Made by a program: the position numbers and the translations under genes. A stretch of DNA of 64,000 bases, from positions 62,001-126,000 of the forward strand of contig NZ_JAMXFC010000010.1 of NCBI RefSeq assembly GCF_025370755.1, in the 5' to 3' direction. A model generated the notes under the pieces. The model worked only from the letters and a program-made list of their open reading frames with translations. It did no database searches and was not told where the DNA came from. Each line of letters begins with the position of its first letter. Positions within the stretch are counted from its first letter, which is position 1. Shown one piece after another: positions 26,895-36,990 of the stretch. Origin of the DNA: Laspinema sp. D2d. GTDB lineage: Bacteria > Cyanobacteriota > Cyanobacteriia > Cyanobacteriales > Laspinemataceae.

Positions 26895-28184
26895 TTAAGC
26901 CAGAGACCGCTTAACTTTGTTAATCCAACCTTGATTCAGACGCAGGACTTCTGAATAGCTTATATCTGTATCTAAGACTAAATCAAAAACGAAAGGTTTC
27001 ATCTGTTGGGGAAACCAACGATGCAACAATCGCCCGAGTTGTAAGCGGAAGAAAAACTCGAAGATTAATCGCTTATTTCGGGGAAAAGAATAATCAGATA
27101 AGTCTTGCAAGGCATGAGCATCGGGAATTCTTTGCTGAGAAAATTGGGGTAAAACTTGACTCCAATCATCTTGATAGCGGTCCAACACCTGATCCAAAAT
27201 AAAGATATCTTCTAAAGCCGAATTGCACCCTTGACCAATGGAAGGAGAGACCGCATGAGCCGCATCTCCAATGAATAGAATGCTATCTCCTTCATGGAAG
27301 CGATCGCAGCGGACTGTGAGGATTCTTGCTATTTGACGTTTCAGAACAGTATCGGCTTCTTCTAGGGTCATTAATTCGCCGCAAAGGGGAAACTTTTCTT
27401 GGAAGAACGCCAGCACTTCTTCTGGAGTTGAAAACCCTTCTAGCGGGTTATTTTCTGCATTAAAAATCAAAGTTCCTTGCAAGCGATCGCCCGGTTGCGG
27501 GACTAACAGCAACCGGGTGTTATTATCCAAAGTCCAGGCATGAACGAGATCCGGTTCCGCACTTAGCCCCTTCTCGGGATTAATGCGGCTCACACTCAAA
27601 GACTTATAGGCATCGGGAATATAGTGCTGTTCGCACTCTAACCCGGTATTTTGCACTAAAAATTCCCGCACTGGGGATTTTGCACCATCTGCTCCGATTA
27701 GCACATCGTAAGACGTGGTAAACTGTTCTTCTGTATTTGACTCAAAGGAAACCGTTTTCGCCGTAGCATCGACCTGAGTGCAGGTACAGTCAAATTGGAT
27801 TTTCAGGCGATCGCTGCTGTAGCGTTGGGTCAACTCTTGTAATAGAATACTCACCAACTCATTGCGATCGGTGCAGAGAATCTTATTTTTCCGAGGAATC
27901 CGCCTCGGTTTGCTCTTGGGTCGATAAATCATCGTTCCCTGACAAAAGACCGATTGAGCGGCGATCGCCTCCTCTAGTCCCGGAATTGCTCGAATTGCCT
28001 TGCGTCCCCGTTCCTGAAGCGAAATCGGAAAAGTCCGCGCTTTGGACATCTCCCCTTGACGCGGATCCGGACGTCGTTCGTAGAGTTCAACGCAATACCG
28101 ATCCCCCCGACGTAACAAATAGTGAGCCAATAACAGTCCCGCTGGACCCGCCCCAATTATAATCGCTTTTTGTGCAACTGCCAT
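26895..28184 (-). CDS. FAD-dependent monooxygenase, kynurenine 3-monooxygenase-like
   Basis: Protein of 429 residues of the aromatic hydroxylase fold. The FAD-binding Rossmann motif is 'AIIIGAGPAGLLLAHYLL' (about 7-24); the second FAD/NADPH motif is 'YDVLIGADGAKSPVRE' (about 158-172); the third is 'ILFIGDAAHAVSPSIGQGCNSALED' (starting near 297). The N-terminal 'FPISLQERGRKAIRAI' and the C-terminal membrane-associating region ('FFFRLQLGRLLHRWFP') resemble kynurenine 3-monooxygenase more than p-hydroxybenzoate hydroxylase. No other kynurenine-pathway gene is nearby, so the substrate stays open. Converges with the GTPase gene 134 bp away. Confidence 0.8.
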   Translation of the reverse strand: MAVAQKAIIIGAGPAGLLLAHYLLRRGDRYCVELYERRPDPRQGEMSKARTFPISLQERGRKAIRAIPGLEEAIAAQSVFCQGTMIYRPKSKPRRIPRKNKILCTDRNELVSILLQELTQRYSSDRLKIQFDCTCTQVDATAKTVSFESNTEEQFTTSYDVLIGADGAKSPVREFLVQNTGLECEQHYIPDAYKSLSVSRINPEKGLSAEPDLVHAWTLDNNTRLLLVPQPGDRLQGTLIFNAENNPLEGFSTPEEVLAFFQEKFPLCGELMTLEEADTVLKRQIARILTVRCDRFHEGDSILFIGDAAHAVSPSIGQGCNSALEDIFILDQVLDRYQDDWSQVLPQFSQQRIPDAHALQDLSDYSFPRNKRLIFEFFFRLQLGRLLHRWFPQQMKPFVFDLVLDTDISYSEVLRLNQGWINKVKRSLA

Positions 28185-28373: not shown

Positions 28374-29837
28374 TTATTGATTACCAAAGCACACTTGTAG
28401 AGACCCTCCATTGTCACCCAGTGAATTGTCCGCATCATTGATTCGCATCTCAACAGTATTAAACGAATCTGTGAAAGATCCAGAGCCTGGGAGCCAAAAA
28501 AAATGTTCCCCATTACCCATTAATAAAGCACCGAAAGGAAATCTCTGGTCATATTTATACTGACTGTATGGACTGAGATCTTCAGCATCTCGTCCACTAT
28601 GTCCAAAAGAACCAACAGGTGAATAGTTTCGAGTATCCACACTCCAACCTCCGCTCGTGCTGACTACTTGAGAAAAACTACGCGGCAAATTAAATTTCTG
28701 CCAGCCTTTCCTTGAATCTACTGCTACACAGTAGGGTCGAGAGCTTTCTGGTACGCTAACGGGAGGTTGGTAAGCAGAAGGTGAAGTAGTTTGCTCTTCT
28801 AAGGTTGTTAAGAGTGAGCGAGGTGGCGTAGATTTGTTCAGAGCAAACCCCAGCAGGATAGATGCACCAATTAATCCTCCCGCAATTGCACTACTCATCA
28901 AGATTGTTTTAGATGAATCTTGGGAACTAACAAGCGGCGTTTGCGAGTTACTCCCACGGGGAGATTGCGCTTCTTGGGGGTTGTCTGACAAGGGTAAGTT
29001 AGTCAAGGTAGAAGCGTTGGAAACTGGGTTAGCGATCGCTGCGAGCATTTCTTGAGCGCTATGAAAGCGATCGCGGGGATGATACCGAATTGCCTTGTCC
29101 AGAACCGTTGCCAAAGTTGGACTAATTCGCGGCGCATATTGTCGCCAAATCACCTCCCCCGTCTGTGGATCCGATGGCAATTCTTGAGGCCATTTTTCCG
29201 TAAACAAATAAATCGCCGTTAACGCCAAACTATACAAATCACTAGAATACAACGGGCGACCTGCTGCTTGTTCTGCTGGCATAAATCCCGGAGTGCCAAT
29301 CACAATCGAACTGGTCTTTTTGCCCGAGGAATTTATCACCGTTCCCATTGTTTCTTTGACCGCGCCAAAATCAATTAATATCGGTATTCCATCGATCTGA
29401 CGCAACATAATATTATCCGGGTTAATATCTTGATGAACAATCCCATGACTATGTACAAACTTTAATACGGGCAGCAAACTCAGCAGGATTTTGTAGACCA
29501 AATTTTCGCTCATTTTCCCCTGATTTGCCACCCGATTGGTCAGGGTTTCCCCTTCTATCCATTCTTGGACTAGATAAAAGTTAGTCTGTTCTTCAAAATA
29601 GGCATACAACCGAGGGATTTGTCGGTTCCCTTCTCCTAATGCTTCTAGGATTGCTGCTTCTCGTGCAAATCGTTCATTGATGAGTTGAAAGATTTGAGGA
29701 TTGGCCGTAACAGGCTTAAGTTGCTTGACCACGCAGGGACGTTCTGACGGCATTCGGGTATCTTCCGCGAGGAAGATGTCCCCAAATCCTCCGGCCCCAA
29801 GTTCACGAATAATCCGATAGCGATTGTTGATTAGCAT
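28374..29837 (-). CDS. Transmembrane Ser/Thr protein kinase with extracytoplasmic PA-IL (LecA)-like domain
   Basis: Protein of 487 residues. The kinase domain (1-270) has 'LGAGGFGDIFLAED', Lys38, catalytic loop 'HQDINPDN' (Asp137; Gln replaces the usual Arg), 'DFGAVKE' (Asp156) and 'GTPGFMPAEQ'. A Ser/Pro-rich linker leads to one membrane helix (about 311-333), then a Thr/Pro stalk and a C-terminal domain (about 373-485) outside the membrane. That domain matches my memory of the galactose lectin LecA (PA-IL): 'GWSV...NYSP', 'FGALLMGNGEHFFWLPG', and 'INDADNSLGDNGGSLQV' aligned with LecA 'YNDVPGTYGNNSGSFSV', keeping residues at the Ca2+-ligand positions (Asp, Ser for Thr, Asp for Asn, Asn). Kinase inside and lectin outside suggests a sugar-sensing receptor kinase, which is inference. 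It starts ATGCTAATCAAC; the next leftward gene lies far off. Confidence 0.85.
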   Translation of the reverse strand: MLINNRYRIIRELGAGGFGDIFLAEDTRMPSERPCVVKQLKPVTANPQIFQLINERFAREAAILEALGEGNRQIPRLYAYFEEQTNFYLVQEWIEGETLTNRVANQGKMSENLVYKILLSLLPVLKFVHSHGIVHQDINPDNIMLRQIDGIPILIDFGAVKETMGTVINSSGKKTSSIVIGTPGFMPAEQAAGRPLYSSDLYSLALTAIYLFTEKWPQELPSDPQTGEVIWRQYAPRISPTLATVLDKAIRYHPRDRFHSAQEMLAAIANPVSNASTLTNLPLSDNPQEAQSPRGSNSQTPLVSSQDSSKTILMSSAIAGGLIGASILLGFALNKSTPPRSLLTTLEEQTTSPSAYQPPVSVPESSRPYCVAVDSRKGWQKFNLPRSFSQVVSTSGGWSVDTRNYSPVGSFGHSGRDAEDLSPYSQYKYDQRFPFGALLMGNGEHFFWLPGSGSFTDSFNTVEMRINDADNSLGDNGGSLQVCFGNQ

Positions 29838-30231
29838 TATTTTTCACTATTTATTAACGCTTTTTTAAGGAGAGATCGTGCACTAGGGGTTTATCCTTTG
29901 AAAGGACGGCCCGAGAGGACCGGCAACCTGCTCATGGAAGAGGTTCTGTCGCTTCCGCAAGGCCGGGATGAGTTCAACAATCTGCCAGGTAGATGCAGTC
30001 ATGGTTTTACTATAACCTGAACCAGGGATATAACATCCTTAATATTTTATTAAAATCCCAGACTTTCGCGCTGAGGGTATTGCAAAAAATAAATCATCCA
30101 AATGTTTGTAGTAACCCCTTTAGGGGTTTCTTTAAAGATGACTCCTGAAGGAGTCACTACGAACGTTTTGCTGGTTTTATTTTTTGAGTTCCCTGAGAGA
30201 CTTACAAACACCGAAACCCAGTTTCTGAGTT
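29838..30231. other. Gap with a dispersed double-hairpin repeat
   Basis: About 394 bp between two leftward genes. It holds the promoter of the lectin-kinase gene and the repeat at 30105-30165. No coding sequence is seen. Confidence 0.55.
30105..30165. repeat. Dispersed palindromic repeat with two nested hairpins
   Basis: Two short hairpins, AACCCC-TTTA-GGGGTT and GACTCC-TGAA-GGAGTC, lie inside an outer GTAGT/ACTAC pairing, a three-way-junction shape. It lies 3' of the NACHT gene (leftward) and may also stop transcription. The form is typical of REP/MITE-like repeats of filamentous cyanobacteria. Confidence 0.6.
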
Positions 30232-33200
30232 CTACTGCTCGATCGCCCCTAATGCTTTGAGAGTGGCTTTTTGAGCCTCGGTTAATCCCGTCGTCCCGGT
30301 AATATTCATCCCGGCGTAGGGTTTATTAACGATCGCCTGTAGACAGTTTCCTGACTCTAACTCCCACACTTTAATTGTTTCATCATAACTCCCAGAAACA
30401 AGGGTTTTTCCCTCGGGATGAAACACCAGGGATAACACGGCACTTCCATGTCCGTCTAAGGTTTTGAGACAGTCTCCGGTTTCGATATCCCAGAGACTGA
30501 CGATGCCATCTTCTGCGCCAGAGGCGAGGGTTTGTCCATCCGGGGAAACGGCCACCGCCCAGACGTAATTGCCTTGCCCCTGTAAGCTTTTCAGGCATTC
30601 GCCAGTCCGGAAATCCCACAAGTTCATTGTGCCATCAGCGGTGCCGGATACGAGAGTTGTGCTATTGCTACAGAAAGAGAGAGAAACGACTCGACTGGTG
30701 TGCCCTTGTAACGGTTTCATCCCCTGTTCCGTTGGCAAATTCCAGAGTTTCACGGTGCAGTCCGCACTCCCGCAGGCCAAGGTTTTACCATCTGGGGCCA
30801 AGGCCATCACTTCCCCAGAACTGGGGGGTTTCCATTGAGTTGTGAGATACTCACCTGTCTGCATTTCCCAACGGTGAAGCGTGCCGTCATCGCTGAGGCT
30901 TGTGAGGTGGTCTCCGGTGGGGGGAATGGCGACCGATAGCACTTTGCTGGGATGCCCCTGCCAAGTCTTCAAACATTCGCCGCTGGTTAAATCCCAGAGT
31001 TTGACGCGGCGATCGGCACTGCCGGAGGCGAGGGTGTTGCCATCGGGGGCGATCGCCAAGGACCAAACTGCACTCGCATATCCTTGTAATGTTGTGAGAG
31101 ATTCTCCTCGAACGATATCCCACAGTTTCACCGTTTCGTCATCGCTGCCGGAGACCAATGTGCGGCCATCGGGAGCAATGGCAACGGTTCCTACCCGACT
31201 ATTATGCTCGGGTAATCGATGTAAACAGTCCCCATTTGTCATATCCCAGACTTTGACTGCCCCATCAGCACTCCCTCCGATCAGGGTTTTTCCATCGGGG
31301 GCGACTACTAAGGACCAAACGGAACTACTTTGTTCCTCTAAGGTTTTTTGACAGTTGCCAGTAGTTAAATCCCAGAGTTTGATGGTTCCCCCTGCACTGC
31401 CGGAGGCGAGGGTTGTACCATCGGGGGTGACTGCCACGGATAAAACCCACTCCGTATGTCCTTCTAAGGTTTTGCGACAAACGCCGGTTTCCACATCCCA
31501 GAGTTTCACCGTTTGATCAGCACTCCCCGAGGCGATGGTTTTGCCATCGGGGGTGATGGCGACGGACCAAATGATGCTACCATGTCCATATAACGTTGTA
31601 TGACAGAGGCCGGTTTCTAAATCCCAGAGTTTGACGGTGCGATCGTTACTCCCAGAAACGAGGGTTTTGCCATCGGGGGTGACGGCGAGCGATCGCACAA
31701 AATGGCTATGACCCTCTAAGGTTTTCAGACAGTTCCCCGTCCGCACATCCCAGGTTTTGACGGTCCCATCATCGCTACCCGAAACGAGGGTTTTGCCATC
31801 GGGGGTGACTGCCACGGACCAGACTGCGGCAGAATGTCCTTGACACAAAACCAAGGGTTTTCCTTCCACTTGCCATACATAAATTTCCCCATTGGCATCT
31901 CCCGTGGCAAACCACTCGCCATCAGGACTAAATGCCGCTGATAAAACTGTGCCAAATACGGTTGTAAAAGTACAATGTTTTAAATTAGCTTGCGCTAAAT
32001 TGACGTTTCTTAAATTAGCGGAAGTAAAATCAGCGCCTAGGATTACCGTATCTTGAAGGTCGCTATTATCCAAAGCATTCGGGTCAAGTTTTAACAGCAA
32101 GGTGACCGCATTTCCGCCCAGGTATGCCGCTACATTTTCACATTGACCTTGAGTGGATTGAACTAATTGTAATAATCGGGTTTTGGTCGCTTCCCCAGGG
32201 TCAACGGTGGGTAATAAAAGCTTTAACACCGCTGGGGTTAAAGGTGCTTTGCCAAAGGTTTGGGAGAGTTCGGACGGCGGGGGAAAGTGTTTGAGGTCGG
32301 CAAATTCAGCAAAATCCGGGGCTAAAATGCCCAATTCTACGGCAAATTTGTAGGCAACAAAAAACTCTAATAGGGAGCGATGGGCGGGAGTATAATCCCC
32401 TTCAGCATTACGAATCAGCATGGTTTGAGCCATCATGTCATAATGCCAATGGTCTAAATCTTTTTGTTGTTGGACTACGGTACTGAACAGGCGACGCAGA
32501 CGATTGGGAAATTCCCGGAAATTGAGACTCATCTGGTCAGTGGAAAGCATTTCCCAGGAGAGTTCACAGAGGAAATATAATTTATCCGCCATTGAGGTAA
32601 AAGTGCGCTCGGTTTTGATATCCCGTTCCATCTTGCGGCGCACGGCATAAAAGTAAATTCGAGATAAATCAATGGGTTTCCCTGACTCAATTTCTGGAAG
32701 GGCTTCCAAAATCAACTCAATCATCACGGGACGTTTTGCCAAATCCAATAATTTGGCATTTTGCATCACTTTTTCCACGGTGGCGGCTGTGGCCCGTTTG
32801 CTAATCACATCGCGGATTTGGGTGGAATTAAGCTTTTCAATTTCTAGCACTTCAAACTGAGGGGTTGCCCCAATTAAATTGGCGGTAGAAGCTTTTAATT
32901 CTGCATTTAAAAGGGCGCGTCCTTCTTGAGCTTCGGGAAAATGTTCTGTTCTACAAGTTAGGATAACTTTGGCACCAGGAACAACCACTTTGGCGAGTTC
33001 CCAAAAGTTATTAATCATTTGTTGGCGATCGACTTTGGCGGCCATTTCATCAAAGCCATCAAAAATTAATAACAATTTCCCCATGCGATTCAATTGCTCA
33101 AAGGCAGAATAACCGGGTAAGCCAATTTCATGCTGACGGAAGAAGAATTCTGAAAATAAGGATTCGACGCTGACTGCTTTGGCATAATCCCGTAAGGGAA

Positions 33201-34464
33201 TGACTAAAGGCAGGCGAGGACGCGGTAATCCTTCTTCTTTAGCTGCGCGATATTTCTTAACAGTTTCCCAGGAATAATGAAGGGCAAACCAGGTTTTTCC
33301 CGTGCCAAATTCCCCTAAAATTGAGATATGTTCTTTTGCTGGATCATCCACCCAACGGTTGATATAGCGATCGATCCAGCCGTTGCGTTCATCGTACCGA
33401 CTTTTGGCAATTCGTTGGTGAGTAATCGGGTCTAGTTCTTCTTTGGTGCAGGCAAGCGGCACATATAAACGTTCAATGTCGCGCTGCATGACTTCGGTTT
33501 CTAACCAGTCGATATATCGACTAAAATCTGCTACTTCGTCGATGAGTTCATCAAAGGTGTAGCAAAATAAAATATCATCATTTTCAACACTATCTACCGC
33601 TGCTTGACTAATCCGTCTCGGGGCAACTAACCAGCCTTCATCGGCTTTTTGAACCTCGACAGATTGCCGTAAATGATTGACATCACTAATCGTAACTTCT
33701 CCTTCAATGCCTCGGACTACAATGCGATCAAACCCACGACGGGCGCGGATATTAATAATCCATTCAAAATAAGTCGGGGTTTGAACATCATAAGACTCAA
33801 AGTCATATAAAGCTTCTAACCAGTTGCGTAATTGCCGAGCAAATTCTGATTTAAGCTTGGGTTCCTTCCCGGCAGCCGGAAGAATGGGGTCAGGTTCAGT
33901 AGCGGTTAATTTAGCAATTTCTTGGCGAAGGTCTTCCAGGGCATTGAGATTTTCCAGGCGCTCTAAAATTTGGCTGGTATTATACCGCAAATCTTCAATT
34001 TTGCGAAATTCCAAGACTTCCGCAGGAGTGCGGGTGCGGTTGGCAATTTCCATAAAAATGCTGCTAAATTTCGCCAACTCCCGTTGATAATCAATCCGAC
34101 TTGCCCGAATTTTATCTCCCAATGCAAAGCCATCGATATAAGATTCGGCTTCGGTGAGGAGGGTATAAGGGTCGTTGCGATCGAAGGCTTTGCGAAAGCC
34201 TTGATAAATTTCGTTTTGGCGGAAGAGTTCGAGGACGAGTTGGAGTTGGTCAAAATCGAAGTTATCGAGGTTTTGAATGCCATATTCAACTAAGGCATAC
34301 CGATAAACTCCGGTAAAATCTGCCGGAGGATGGTCGGTATCAATTTGAAATTTTTGGAGTAATTTAATAACTAATTCGTTGCGTCTAGCGGTATTAATGA
34401 TGACGGGAGTGGCAACGCGAGCGATCGCCAGAATCGCCCGAACGATCTCGTCAATTCCTACCAT
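30232..34464 (-). CDS. NACHT STAND NTPase with WD40 repeats
   Basis: Protein of 1410 residues. The N-terminal helical domain (about 1-200) is one I do not recognise. A region at about 215-330 ('FDRIVVRGIEGEVTISDVNHLRQS' vicinity, 'VEVQKADEGWLVAPRRIS') looks like a degenerate restriction-endonuclease-like fold. The NACHT ATPase has Walker A 'LGEFGTGKTWFALHY' (about 383) and Walker B 'LLLIFDGFDEM' (about 462), then 'TCRTEHFPEAQEG'. Winged-helix and helical parts follow ('PAHRSLLEFFVAYKF'), then a short pentapeptide-like strip ('GADFTSANLRNVNLAQANL', about 805-825) and 13 WD40 repeats (about 830-1380). The conserved cyanobacterial tail 'GMNITGTTGLTEAQKATLKALGA' closes it. STAND proteins oligomerise after sensing a ligand; bacterial NACHT proteins include phage-defence members, but no defence role is shown here. 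Confidence 0.92.
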   Translation of the reverse strand: MVGIDEIVRAILAIARVATPVIINTARRNELVIKLLQKFQIDTDHPPADFTGVYRYALVEYGIQNLDNFDFDQLQLVLELFRQNEIYQGFRKAFDRNDPYTLLTEAESYIDGFALGDKIRASRIDYQRELAKFSSIFMEIANRTRTPAEVLEFRKIEDLRYNTSQILERLENLNALEDLRQEIAKLTATEPDPILPAAGKEPKLKSEFARQLRNWLEALYDFESYDVQTPTYFEWIINIRARRGFDRIVVRGIEGEVTISDVNHLRQSVEVQKADEGWLVAPRRISQAAVDSVENDDILFCYTFDELIDEVADFSRYIDWLETEVMQRDIERLYVPLACTKEELDPITHQRIAKSRYDERNGWIDRYINRWVDDPAKEHISILGEFGTGKTWFALHYSWETVKKYRAAKEEGLPRPRLPLVIPLRDYAKAVSVESLFSEFFFRQHEIGLPGYSAFEQLNRMGKLLLIFDGFDEMAAKVDRQQMINNFWELAKVVVPGAKVILTCRTEHFPEAQEGRALLNAELKASTANLIGATPQFEVLEIEKLNSTQIRDVISKRATAATVEKVMQNAKLLDLAKRPVMIELILEALPEIESGKPIDLSRIYFYAVRRKMERDIKTERTFTSMADKLYFLCELSWEMLSTDQMSLNFREFPNRLRRLFSTVVQQQKDLDHWHYDMMAQTMLIRNAEGDYTPAHRSLLEFFVAYKFAVELGILAPDFAEFADLKHFPPPSELSQTFGKAPLTPAVLKLLLPTVDPGEATKTRLLQLVQSTQGQCENVAAYLGGNAVTLLLKLDPNALDNSDLQDTVILGADFTSANLRNVNLAQANLKHCTFTTVFGTVLSAAFSPDGEWFATGDANGEIYVWQVEGKPLVLCQGHSAAVWSVAVTPDGKTLVSGSDDGTVKTWDVRTGNCLKTLEGHSHFVRSLAVTPDGKTLVSGSNDRTVKLWDLETGLCHTTLYGHGSIIWSVAITPDGKTIASGSADQTVKLWDVETGVCRKTLEGHTEWVLSVAVTPDGTTLASGSAGGTIKLWDLTTGNCQKTLEEQSSSVWSLVVAPDGKTLIGGSADGAVKVWDMTNGDCLHRLPEHNSRVGTVAIAPDGRTLVSGSDDETVKLWDIVRGESLTTLQGYASAVWSLAIAPDGNTLASGSADRRVKLWDLTSGECLKTWQGHPSKVLSVAIPPTGDHLTSLSDDGTLHRWEMQTGEYLTTQWKPPSSGEVMALAPDGKTLACGSADCTVKLWNLPTEQGMKPLQGHTSRVVSLSFCSNSTTLVSGTADGTMNLWDFRTGECLKSLQGQGNYVWAVAVSPDGQTLASGAEDGIVSLWDIETGDCLKTLDGHGSAVLSLVFHPEGKTLVSGSYDETIKVWELESGNCLQAIVNKPYAGMNITGTTGLTEAQKATLKALGAIEQ

Positions 34465-35121
34465 AGTTTTTTCCTCGATCTGCGATGGCTAATAACCTCT
34501 ATCTGGGACAGTAATAGCTATTTAGGGGTTCGGGGTTGGGTTCTGGTTTCAAACCCTTAACCCGTCGTGAGTGGGGTCGGTGGTTGGTTGCGATCGCGGC
34601 TATGCTCATGACTGGGGGTAAATGAGGTTATGGTGGAGTCCCTCATCAAACGTAACGCAATTTTCCCCAGTTAGCCTAGGGTGGGTAACCCGCACTCGAT
34701 TGGAAAGTGGGGGAGATGAGTGCACAGCCTTCTTTAATTATTCTATTCTGTCCTGAAAAACCCTGACTTGACTTCCTGTCCCCTCGCCTGTGTTTTGACT
34801 GGGTTGGCAAGGGGAGAAGTCTCTTTGTGCAATTCCCTAACCGAGTCCAGACTCAGGAGAGGGCGATCGCATCACCCCAAACCTCAGCGCACCCAGCCGC
34901 TTTTAAAAACTATGAAACCCTTGCCCTAAAAGCTTTTTACTCCCCTAAAGCCGACTAAACTTATACGCAACAGGTGGGAATGGAGGGGCAAACCATGCCA
35001 GTCTGGGGGACCTGTGGTTTGAGACCCCCATCGGTAATCTCTCCCATTAGGGCCGATATGGGATGTTTCAGATTAGCGAACCAAGATTTAACATAGAAAT
35101 AACCGCTTGGGAAACTTGTTG
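34465..35121. other. Divergent promoter region between NACHT-WD40 and kinase-WD40 genes
   Basis: About 657 bp without a convincing gene. It must drive the leftward NACHT gene and the rightward kinase gene. I found no clear repeats, operators or RNA gene in it. Confidence 0.5.
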
Positions 35122-36990
35122 ATGAGTTACTGTCCGAATCCCGATTGTCCGAATCCGATAAATCCTGACCTGACGATGTTTTGTCGTGCCTGTGGTACCA
35201 AGCTGGTGTTGGCACAACGGTATCGTTTGGTCAAACTCATCGGGACGGGAGGGTTCGGCAGAACGCTATTGGCACTGGATGAGTTCAAACCGTCAAAACC
35301 CCAATGTGTGGTTAAGCAATTTTATCCCCAATCCCAACAGAATGCGGAGAAGGCCAATCAATTATTTCAGCAAGAGGCAATTCGCCTGGAACAATTGGGC
35401 AAACATTCGCAAATTCCCGAACTGTTTGCTCATTTTGAACAAGAAAATCGGCAATATATTGTCCAGGAATTTATTGATGGACAAAATTTAACCGAAGAAC
35501 TTGCCGAACAAGGGCGATTTTCTGAATCAGCAATTGTTAGTCTCTTGGAAGATTTATTGCCGGTTTTAGATTTTGTCCATAAAGGTAAGGTAATTCATCG
35601 GGATATCAAACCAGAAAATATTATTCGGCGTCGTCACGATCGCAAGTTAGTTTTAGTTGATTTTGGGGCGGCGAAATATGCTACCGGAACCACCCTGAAT
35701 CAAACGGGGACAACGATTGGCACCAAGGGTTATGCGGCCCCGGAACAAACCTTTGGCAAGGCCGTATTTGCCAGTGATATCTACAGTTTGGGGGTGACTT
35801 GTATTCACTTATTGACGACCCGAGAACCGTTTGAGATGTATGATGCGATGGAAAGTACCTTTGTTTGGCGCGAGTATTTAGGCATCAACAAAGTGAGCGA
35901 TCGCCTTGCCACGGTCCTAGACAAAGCGATTGAGGGGAGTGTGAGACGGCGCTATCAATCCGCTGAGGAATTCATTGAAGGGTTGAAGGCCACCCCTGCC
36001 AAAGTGAGTAGGACCATCACCCCCCAATCGCGATCGCCTGCACCGACTCCCCAACGGGCGATCGCCACGGTGCGCGTGAGCACCCCTCCGGTTACGGTTT
36101 CTGAAATTGGCAGTTTGAGGGGACATGGTGCGCCGGTCAAAGCGGTGGCAATTAGTGCGAATGGTCAGTTGTTAGTCAGTGGCAGTCGTTCCGGGATTAA
36201 ATGGTGGCAACTCCATGAGGGGCAAGAATTACCCACCCTGCGCAGCAGTTGGCCCGAGGAACCCTTTGCGGGGGTCAGTGCGGTTGCTTTTTCCCCGGAT
36301 GGCCGCCTGTTGGCCGCAGGTAGTGGCGGGGGGGCGATCGCCTTATGGGATGTGACGTTGCGGCGAATTCTGCGCCTGCTGAAAGCGCCATCGGGGGTCA
36401 AATCCGTGGCTTTTTCCCCGGATGGGGGACTGTTGGCTGCTGGGGGAACTGATGGGGCGATCGCCCTCTGGGAGACGGCTTCTTGGCGGCAATTTCGCCC
36501 TTTGGAGGGTCATTCTGCTGCGGTCAACTCGGTAGCTTTTTCTCCTGATCGCCGCACATTAGTCTCCGGAAGTGAGGATACTTCCATTGTGTTCTGGGAT
36601 GCCACGACTCAGGAGGATAAACAGACGGGATGGGGACGATCAGGGGCCGTGAATGCGATCGCGATTTCTCCCTGTGGTCGCTTCCTCGCCAGTGGTTGTG
36701 CGAATCGCATGATTTTGTTGTGGGAACTGCCCTCGGGACAGCAAATTGGCACGCTTACCGGACATTCCACCGGGGTCAATTCCGTAGCTTTTTCCCCCGA
36801 TGGCGCAACCCTCGCTTCCGGCAGTGATGATACATCCATTGTGCTATGGGATGTAAAAACAGGCCAGGAAAAGCGCACTTGCTGGGGGCGATCGGGGGTC
36901 GTCTATGCCGTCGCTTTTACTCCCGATGGCAATACCCTCGTCAGTGGAACTGAGGATACCACGGTGAAAATTTGGCAGTTGCGGGGATAA
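35122..36990 (+). CDS. Ser/Thr protein kinase with zinc ribbon and seven WD40 repeats
   Basis: Protein of 622 residues from ATG 35122 (MSYCPNPDC); a TTG five codons earlier also opens the frame. The N-terminal zinc ribbon has cysteines in 'YCPNPDCPNPINP' and 'FCRACGTKL' (1-32). The kinase domain (about 37-290) has 'LIGTGGFGRTLLALD', 'CVVKQF', 'HRDIKPEN', 'VDFGAAKY' and 'GTKGYAAPEQ'. After a Thr/Pro-rich linker, seven WD40 repeats (about 330-622) form one complete propeller, with cores such as 'VNSVAFSPDGATLASGSDD'. No membrane helix is seen, so it is a cytosolic kinase with a protein-interaction platform. It is divergent from the NACHT-WD40 gene. Confidence 0.92.
   Translation: MSYCPNPDCPNPINPDLTMFCRACGTKLVLAQRYRLVKLIGTGGFGRTLLALDEFKPSKPQCVVKQFYPQSQQNAEKANQLFQQEAIRLEQLGKHSQIPELFAHFEQENRQYIVQEFIDGQNLTEELAEQGRFSESAIVSLLEDLLPVLDFVHKGKVIHRDIKPENIIRRRHDRKLVLVDFGAAKYATGTTLNQTGTTIGTKGYAAPEQTFGKAVFASDIYSLGVTCIHLLTTREPFEMYDAMESTFVWREYLGINKVSDRLATVLDKAIEGSVRRRYQSAEEFIEGLKATPAKVSRTITPQSRSPAPTPQRAIATVRVSTPPVTVSEIGSLRGHGAPVKAVAISANGQLLVSGSRSGIKWWQLHEGQELPTLRSSWPEEPFAGVSAVAFSPDGRLLAAGSGGGAIALWDVTLRRILRLLKAPSGVKSVAFSPDGGLLAAGGTDGAIALWETASWRQFRPLEGHSAAVNSVAFSPDRRTLVSGSEDTSIVFWDATTQEDKQTGWGRSGAVNAIAISPCGRFLASGCANRMILLWELPSGQQIGTLTGHSTGVNSVAFSPDGATLASGSDDTSIVLWDVKTGQEKRTCWGRSGVVYAVAFTPDGNTLVSGTEDTTVKIWQLRG

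Follow-up and report, generated by a model that had tools for sequence, protein, structure and literature searches.

Bacterial PASTA kinases (PknB/PrkC/Stk1) consist of a cytoplasmic kinase, one helix, and an outer ligand-binding domain. In the lectin receptor-like kinases of plants, a lectin is found outside and the kinase inside, and many plant immune receptors have a non-RD catalytic loop. Among cyanobacteria, the recruitment of C-terminal domains by kinases is known, and the accessible text of a 21-genome survey gives 14 types of such added domain, with no lectin named there (PMC2176072). As for the PA-IL lectins, EclA is presented, in the part of its description available to us, as the first case in which a LecA domain is joined to a different domain (PMC11875179). 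Moreover, our search of open-access titles and abstracts returned no fusion of a PA-IL or other lectin to a Ser/Thr kinase, and in the accessible main texts of three kinase surveys (PMC2176072, PMC1262709, and PMC11863333) there is no word beginning with 'lectin'.

Gene architecture and genomic setting

The gene described here lies in the window, that is, the whole 64,000-nucleotide stretch that was analysed, on contig C7 of a 6.6 Mb genome (G000). Its features, given in window coordinates, are as follows.

28374..29837, minus strand: whole gene, encoding a kinase, a transmembrane helix, and a PA-IL-like C-terminal domain, 487 aa (ORF list, ATG start; Pfam)
29046..29819, minus strand: kinase domain, residues 7-264, with the P-loop GAGGFG at 14 and DFG at 156 (PF00069, E 1.2e-30; motif positions)
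29412..29435 (contig C7: 91412-91435), minus strand: catalytic loop HQDINPDN, residues 135-142 (comparison with relatives; DNA pattern search)
28839..28907, minus strand: transmembrane helix, residues about 311-333 (Kyte-Doolittle)
28755..28778, minus strand: junction of chassis and outer domain, residues about 354-361, where homology to the nearest same-genus kinases ends (protein and DNA matches to genome G472)
28377..28736, minus strand: PA-IL-like (LecA-like) domain, residues 368-487, with C370 and C483 conserved (alignments A2 and A3; models and Foldseek)
28407..28439, minus strand: predicted Ca2+-ligand segment N467-D468-A-D-N-S472-L-G-D475-N476-G (register of the LecA profile match; columns of A3 and A5)

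A kinase, one helix, and a C-terminal domain in a single protein had been proposed in an earlier sequence-only reading, and this was borne out by the ORF list (minus strand, 487 aa), the PF00069 match, and the Kyte-Doolittle profile, whose peak of 1.92 falls on the 19-residue window starting at residue 312. A polar linker separates the kinase domain from the helix, and the C-terminal domain comprises about 118 aa. Hanks-type features are present, namely PF00069, the P-loop, the VVK lysine, the catalytic Asp, the Asn, and DFG, and along the protein the motifs HQD, NYSP, NDADN, and DNGG stand at positions 135, 404, 467, and 475, respectively. With the PASTA kinases, the protein shares the layout of kinase, one helix, and (as predicted here) outer ligand-binding domain, and the NCBIfam model that best fits its kinase part is that of a PASTA kinase (NF033483, E 3.9e-37). 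However, this match of 128.5 bits lies below the model's cut-off of 450, and Pfam detected no PASTA domain in the protein.

The kinase gene is adjoined by one for a FAD-binding monooxygenase-like protein (26895-28184, minus strand). Located 394 bases upstream, on the same strand, is the gene for a 1410-aa NACHT-type protein (30232-34464, minus strand) with an NNH5 N-terminus (E 3e-39) and WD40 repeats, and 5.3 kb away a second Ser/Thr kinase has C-terminal WD40 repeats (35107-36990, plus strand). Also upstream of the kinase is an intergenic palindromic repeat (30071-30194), perhaps a small mobile repeat, which is 90% identical to a stretch of the sister genome G493 (L076:12211-12336). Among these neighbours (NACHT-WD40, monooxygenase-like, and WD40 kinase), no obvious functional partner of the kinase was found.

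Predicted structural likeness of the C-terminal domain to PA-IL lectins

Taken alone, the window domain gave no Pfam or NCBIfam match, and its search against the PDB sequences returned only unrelated chains (best E 0.11). We modelled the domain with AlphaFold (pLDDT 79.0, pTM 0.76), along with a relative from Coleofasciculus (pLDDT 81.5, pTM 0.77), each from a 7-row alignment; since both models were built on one set of seven sequences, they are not independent. When the window-domain model was compared with 350,542 PDB chains using Foldseek, ranks 1-5 were all of the PA-IL family (LecA, EclA-N, and PllA), with LecA as the best (E 3.7e-3, TM 0.61). With the model of the relative, ranks 1-9 were PllA, EclA-N, and LecA (E 0.007-0.029, TM 0.45-0.51). 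For the PA-IL matches of both models, the probability was 0.97-1.00, TM 0.45-0.62, and rmsd 4.3-7.5 Å, and among the 350,542 chains no match to either model was at E 0.001 or better. Model confidence is lower at domain residues 31-70 (block means of 64-76), and in block 101-110, which contains the first part of the predicted Ca2+ segment, the mean pLDDT is 63 and 65. The sequence-only reading had likened this domain to PA-IL lectins, naming PF07828 and the LecA structures; the structural part of this stood, with PA-IL lectins filling the top five and top nine ranks for the two models, and the profile part did not, as PF07828 gave no match to the window domain at E 10 and, of the 14 family members, matched a single one (E 0.043).

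A separate sequence-profile search points the same way. Run against 177,635 distinct PDB sequences, our 14-row profile had two LecA sequences as its top hits (1l7l being the best), each with E 0.39, which is not significant alone; the 4-row profile A1 gave nothing at E 10, and LecA is on top only with the 14-row profile. The match covers LecA residues 62-117 and places the N-D of the family on N99-D100 and its D-N on N107-N108, and in this register the Asp/Ser/Asp/Asn of the kinase fall on LecA 100/104/107/108. Here, the register that HMMER gives with the 14-domain profile is the very one that had earlier been drawn by eye.

Moreover, we found families that form a bridge to PF07828. The family profile matches the C-terminal domain of L021, a LamG protein of genome G255, at E 2.3e-6 in a single comparison; L062, whose domain is 49% identical to that of L021, has a match to PF07828 at E 0.0041 that falls short of the cut-off; and L059 (1315-1731 on contig C49 of genome G157, same order) is over the PF07828 cut-off (E 5.5e-8), with PA-IL lectins as its best matches in the PDB sequences (E 2.1e-7). 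The links are uneven, with a weak profile comparison between the family and L059 (probability 9%) and a phmmer search of the PDB with L021 in which PllA ranks after unrelated chains, at E 1.3. In alignment A5, made of 12 chosen domains including L059, seven columns are invariant, and four of these are the N, D, D, and N of the Ca2+ segment. In genome G255, the PA-IL-like C-terminal domain, below the Pfam cut-off, follows LamG in L021 and L062 and another N-terminal part in L020. Across the phylum sample, PF07828 was over its cut-off in 1 of 386 genomes (L059) and sub-threshold in 12 more, of which only L062 was used, the control having matched 1/14 below the cut-off. Over the own genome, PF07828 gave nothing, though with the control also silent in 14/14 genomes this is no proof of absence.

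Alternatively, the domain might be another jelly roll, nucleoplasmin or legume-lectin like, whose likeness to LecA is convergent. Nucleoplasmin-type and concanavalin-type chains do appear at lower Foldseek ranks, and no E-value is as low as 0.001; yet the first five and first nine ranks are all PA-IL chains at the high probabilities given above, the profile match falls separately in the Ca2+ segment, and L021, L062, and L059 lead to PF07828. This alternative we regard as very improbable. Judged by its modelled fold and its sequence relationships, the C-terminal domain is very probably a divergent member of the PA-IL superfamily, and the proposal that a Ser/Thr kinase with one helix carries a PA-IL-fold domain is supported by the fold searches with two models, the profile search, the bridging families, and the conserved Ca2+-ligand residues. 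It shares with the PA-IL/LecA family (PF07828; LecA, PllA, and EclA-N) the predicted fold and a size of about 118 aa. In contrast to that family, it is without a Pfam match, has its own motifs and a terminal cysteine pair, is fused to a membrane kinase, and shows no recognisable galactose contacts. The helix and the signal-like N-termini of most relatives suggest that the LecA-like domain lies outside the membrane.

A family of domains in non-kinase proteins

Searched as a single sequence, the window domain was found in 5 of 386 phylum genomes (4 of them strong); the 4-row profile matched 14 of 388 order genomes (11 strong) and the 14-row profile 7 of 388 class genomes (6 strong), the own genome being included each time and the three samples overlapping. 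A contig search gave 7 loci, several of them from the same genomes. No relative turned up when viral contigs, plasmids, and phages were searched with the single sequence. Left out of the family count were the weak matches L002, L006, L016-L018, L020, L021, and L086 (E 5e-5 to 0.44), although L021 and L086 entered A5 as possible bridges, and a genome present under two ids (e.g. L003/L024, L005/L027, L008/L022, and L012/L026) was counted once.

Besides the window, we read 17 distinct carrier loci (the strong match L083 is not among them), and by this reading all 17 are non-kinases, L028 being seen only as pieces around a stop. Pfam likewise detected no kinase on the open frames of L004, L005, L010, L019, L023, L082, L084, and L085 and most of L015. 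Some carriers are frames of 148-177 aa with little beyond the domain, others have 217-396 aa, and L019 (472 aa) has DUF4189 and a weak phospholipase-A2-like stretch alongside it. Most start with what reads as a signal-like N-terminus and look exported. One copy, L028:4600-5316, in a record titled Uncultured Shimia, is 36% identical and is interrupted by a stop codon. Shimia is an alphaproteobacterium, and this copy may be a transfer beyond the cyanobacteria, a decayed copy, or an error.

In the 14-row alignment A3, two cysteines near the ends are invariant (14/14 rows), as is R-I-N-D-x-D...D-N-x-G-x-L, and the family has its own conserved motifs, GWQ.FNLPG and PYNQYK.DQ.FPFG. The window domain, at most 72% identical to the other 13 rows, differs from them at 1 of 42 conserved columns. 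Only 4 of 15 inner branches of the domain tree are well supported, and the tree is too poorly resolved for a donor to be named. What these searches outline is a cyanobacterial and mostly exported-looking domain family that is covered by no Pfam model.

Calcium and sugar binding

The columns of D468, D475, and N476 are invariant in A3 (14/14 rows) and A5 (12/12 rows). They align with LecA 100, 107, and 108, with a spacing that matches the Ca2+ side-chain ligands, which in LecA are D100, N107, and N108. That Asp, Ser, Asp, and Asn are kept at Ca2+-ligand positions, as the sequence-only reading had it, agrees with this register, which puts D468, S472, D475, and N476 there. PllA is a lectin that holds its sugar at the Ca2+ site. 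For LecA, the accessible text of its description has the sugar at this site, with galactose contacts from Asn107, Thr104, and Asp100 and, via O6, from His50 and Gln53 (PMC9321714). The Ca2+ ligands of EclA-N are given, in the part available, as the side chains of D114, D121, and N122 and the main chains of N54 and Q118 (PMC11875179). Thus, D468, D475, and N476 of the kinase offer the same side chains as D114, D121, and N122 of EclA-N, with the spacing D, +4, D +7, and N +8. The alignment with LecA spans residues 62-117, and His50, Gln53, and Tyr36, the last of which the sequence-only reading had placed near an NY of the kinase, are in the half beyond it.

From these alignments, Ca2+ binding by the outer domain is likely and sugar binding plausible, whereas galactose as the ligand is not supported. 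A 'sugar-sensing' role and a galactose ligand go beyond these results: EclA-N, a crystallised relative, is described in the accessible text as keeping the residue involved only in calcium binding, without the galactose residues and with no ligand found (PMC11875179). This same feature of EclA-N would suit another role for the outer domain, not as a sugar receptor but as an adhesion or structural module, stabilised by Ca2+, that anchors or clusters the kinase at the envelope, the signal being Ca2+ or cell contact. Such a role would also fit the family's own conserved motif around PYNQYKxDQxFPFG and the fact that LecA His50 and Gln53, as given in the accessible text of PMC9321714, could not be matched in the family. 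On the other hand, it is at this Ca2+ site that the sugar of LecA sits (PMC9321714, as accessible), and few columns of our alignments are as conserved as those of the Ca2+ ligands; we see the structural module as rather unlikely, and continue with a ligand-binding domain as the preferred reading.

Catalytic loop and kinase activity

The earlier reading had noted HQD in place of HRD in the catalytic loop. The HQD is present, but the claim was incomplete in that a second change, K139N, had been overlooked: the window loop HQDINPDN has Q136 and N139 where 26/26 related kinases have Arg and Lys. This set came from 29 loci, of which L044, L046, L048, and L050 failed a motif/length filter and L030 gave two rows. 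Among the 31 loops read, window included, there were 29 HRD, one YRD, and one HQD, the last being the window's own. Of 106 conserved columns, 6 are changed in the window kinase and 0 to 13 in the others. It is thus not unusually divergent, yet R136Q and K139N fall in the catalytic loop. Compared with the sisters, the codons changed from CGG to CAA (R136Q) and from AAA to AAC (K139N). A sequencing error here is unlikely, as three base changes would be needed relative to the sister codons. Over the first 272 residues, dN/dS is 0.16-0.23 between the window kinase and five sister kinases and 0.09-0.21 among the sisters; kinase decay is not supported by these values, though the window's lie at the upper side of the sisters'.

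A DNA pattern for HQDI, followed by Asn or part of the Ser codons and then P, was found at 4 places in 3 of 148 genomes, namely in the window kinase, in a 69-aa frame of the own genome that is not kinase-looking, and in one kinase-like protein in each of two other genomes. These two (L087 and L088) read HQDINPKN, with LGCSG near the expected DFG position, and are perhaps pseudokinases.

In protein kinase A, the Lys of the catalytic loop matters for phosphotransfer, and with both Arg and Lys lost, weak or altered activity is a serious possibility. Judged by its loop HQDINPDN, the protein would be no standard kinase but a non-RD one whose phosphotransfer is weak or altered, and the two losses could mean little or no kinase activity. 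Going further, the protein may be a pseudokinase whose HQD...N loop is poor at phosphate transfer and which, as a receptor, answers to the outer domain by binding partners, e.g. other kinases. The change of R136 and K139, so constant in the related kinases, and the LGCSG that accompanies HQDINPKN in L087 and L088 speak for this, while the retained P-loop, VVK lysine, catalytic Asp, Asn, and DFG, together with the low dN/dS, speak against it. We hold the pseudokinase to be possible, at less than even chances, and compatible with our preferred reading of a ligand-binding receptor kinase.

Probable exchange of the outer domain among related kinases

Among the matches listed, kinases at E 1e-50 or better occur in 39/39 genomes, the own included, and the best match outside the own genome, in the sister G472, is 81% identical and ends at residue 361. 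At the DNA level, the match to G472 (1052 bases at 83.65% identity) stops near nucleotide 1061 of the gene, or residue about 354. Beyond this junction, the nearest kinases, those of G472 and G461, carry YARHG (E 6e-23 and 3e-22). Hence, the nearest kinases share a chassis up to about residue 354-361 and then have other ends, which indicates that the outer domain was swapped; the direction and order of these events we can only infer. By Pfam, four of nine related kinases have YARHG, one has GUN4, and four have no C-terminal family, and a further G472 kinase has an ARC6-like_IMS C-terminal part. GC3 (raw values) is 0.43 up to residue 361 and 0.31 after it.

In the sisters G472, G438, and G493, one or more kinases stand between a 465-aa gene and a 786-aa gene (794 in G493). 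G518 has two kinases next to the 465-aa gene, on a short contig, and in G461 one kinase is flanked by the 786-aa gene and the edge of the contig. In G000, the 465-aa and 786-aa genes are direct neighbours with no kinase between them (L077:8349-12260, contig C66), and they are 98-100% and 91-95% identical, respectively, to those of the sisters (four genomes compared each). With its sister site lacking a kinase, G000 thus has the chassis standing elsewhere, with another outer domain. The G472 site also holds a beta-lactamase-like gene.

The fusion of a kinase with a PA-IL-like domain was seen in one genome only across the phylum, order, and class samples. A recent chance event, in which a copy of the chassis recombined with an exported lectin-like gene to give a product without selected function, would account for this single occurrence and for the GC3 difference across the junction. 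Set against such an event are the open frame, the kept cysteines and Ca2+-ligand residues, the near-complete agreement of the window domain with the family's conserved columns despite its limited overall identity, and the dN/dS of the kinase part (0.16-0.23), and we find it unlikely. A domain exchange that gave a ligand-binding receptor remains our preferred reading.

The cbSTKII Hanks-type kinases likewise have an N-terminal kinase and a recruited C-terminal domain, as far as their accessible description goes (PMC2176072), and the related kinases here carry YARHG, ARC6-IMS, and GUN4. Differing from the cbSTKII kinases, with no lectin named among their 14 added domain types in that same text, the window protein has a PA-IL-like domain and the loop HQDIN.

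Proposed model and significance

Directly computed are the architecture, the PA-IL homology (as predicted fold and profile links), the conserved ligand residues, the differing C-termini of the nearest kinases, and the presence of the domain in mostly exported-looking non-kinases. The explanation that we consider somewhat favoured is that domain swapping produced a receptor-type, ligand-binding Ser/Thr kinase whose catalysis is altered or weak. A chassis of kinase plus helix, which in close relatives has a YARHG, ARC6-IMS-like, or other end, would have received a PA-IL-fold domain, probably Ca2+-binding, that faces outwards from the plasma membrane. In the periplasm, this domain might be closed by a C370-C483 disulphide and might bind either Ca2+ alone or a glycan supplied by the sheath of its own cell or by a neighbour. 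Binding would then change how the helix associates, or its conformation, and in this way the kinase. A more specific version is tentative, namely that of a bacterial lectin receptor kinase in which a Ca2+-dependent, glycan-recognising PA-IL-fold domain and one helix are joined to a non-RD, catalytically altered kinase through sensor exchange in a part-shuffling kinase family. In all, the protein is an unusual receptor-type kinase with a strongly supported domain assignment and an inferred sensing function, and the changes in its catalytic loop pose a further puzzle.

The protein resembles the lectin receptor-like kinases of plants in its predicted layout, with a lectin outside and the kinase inside, and many plant immune receptors in its non-RD loop. 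This is an analogy only, as the plant lectins have other folds and the domain order is opposite. What is added here is the swapped outer domain, the non-kinase carriers of the domain, and two changes in the catalytic loop instead of one. Related chassis with different C-terminal parts occur within one genus, and sensor swapping is thus testable with natural variants. The protein may sense sugar or calcium as a receptor whose kinase chemistry is altered. If its outer domain binds glycans, it would be a bacterial kinase that reads extracellular sugars with a LecA fold, and should it be a lectin receptor kinase, it would be a bacterial parallel to those of plants.
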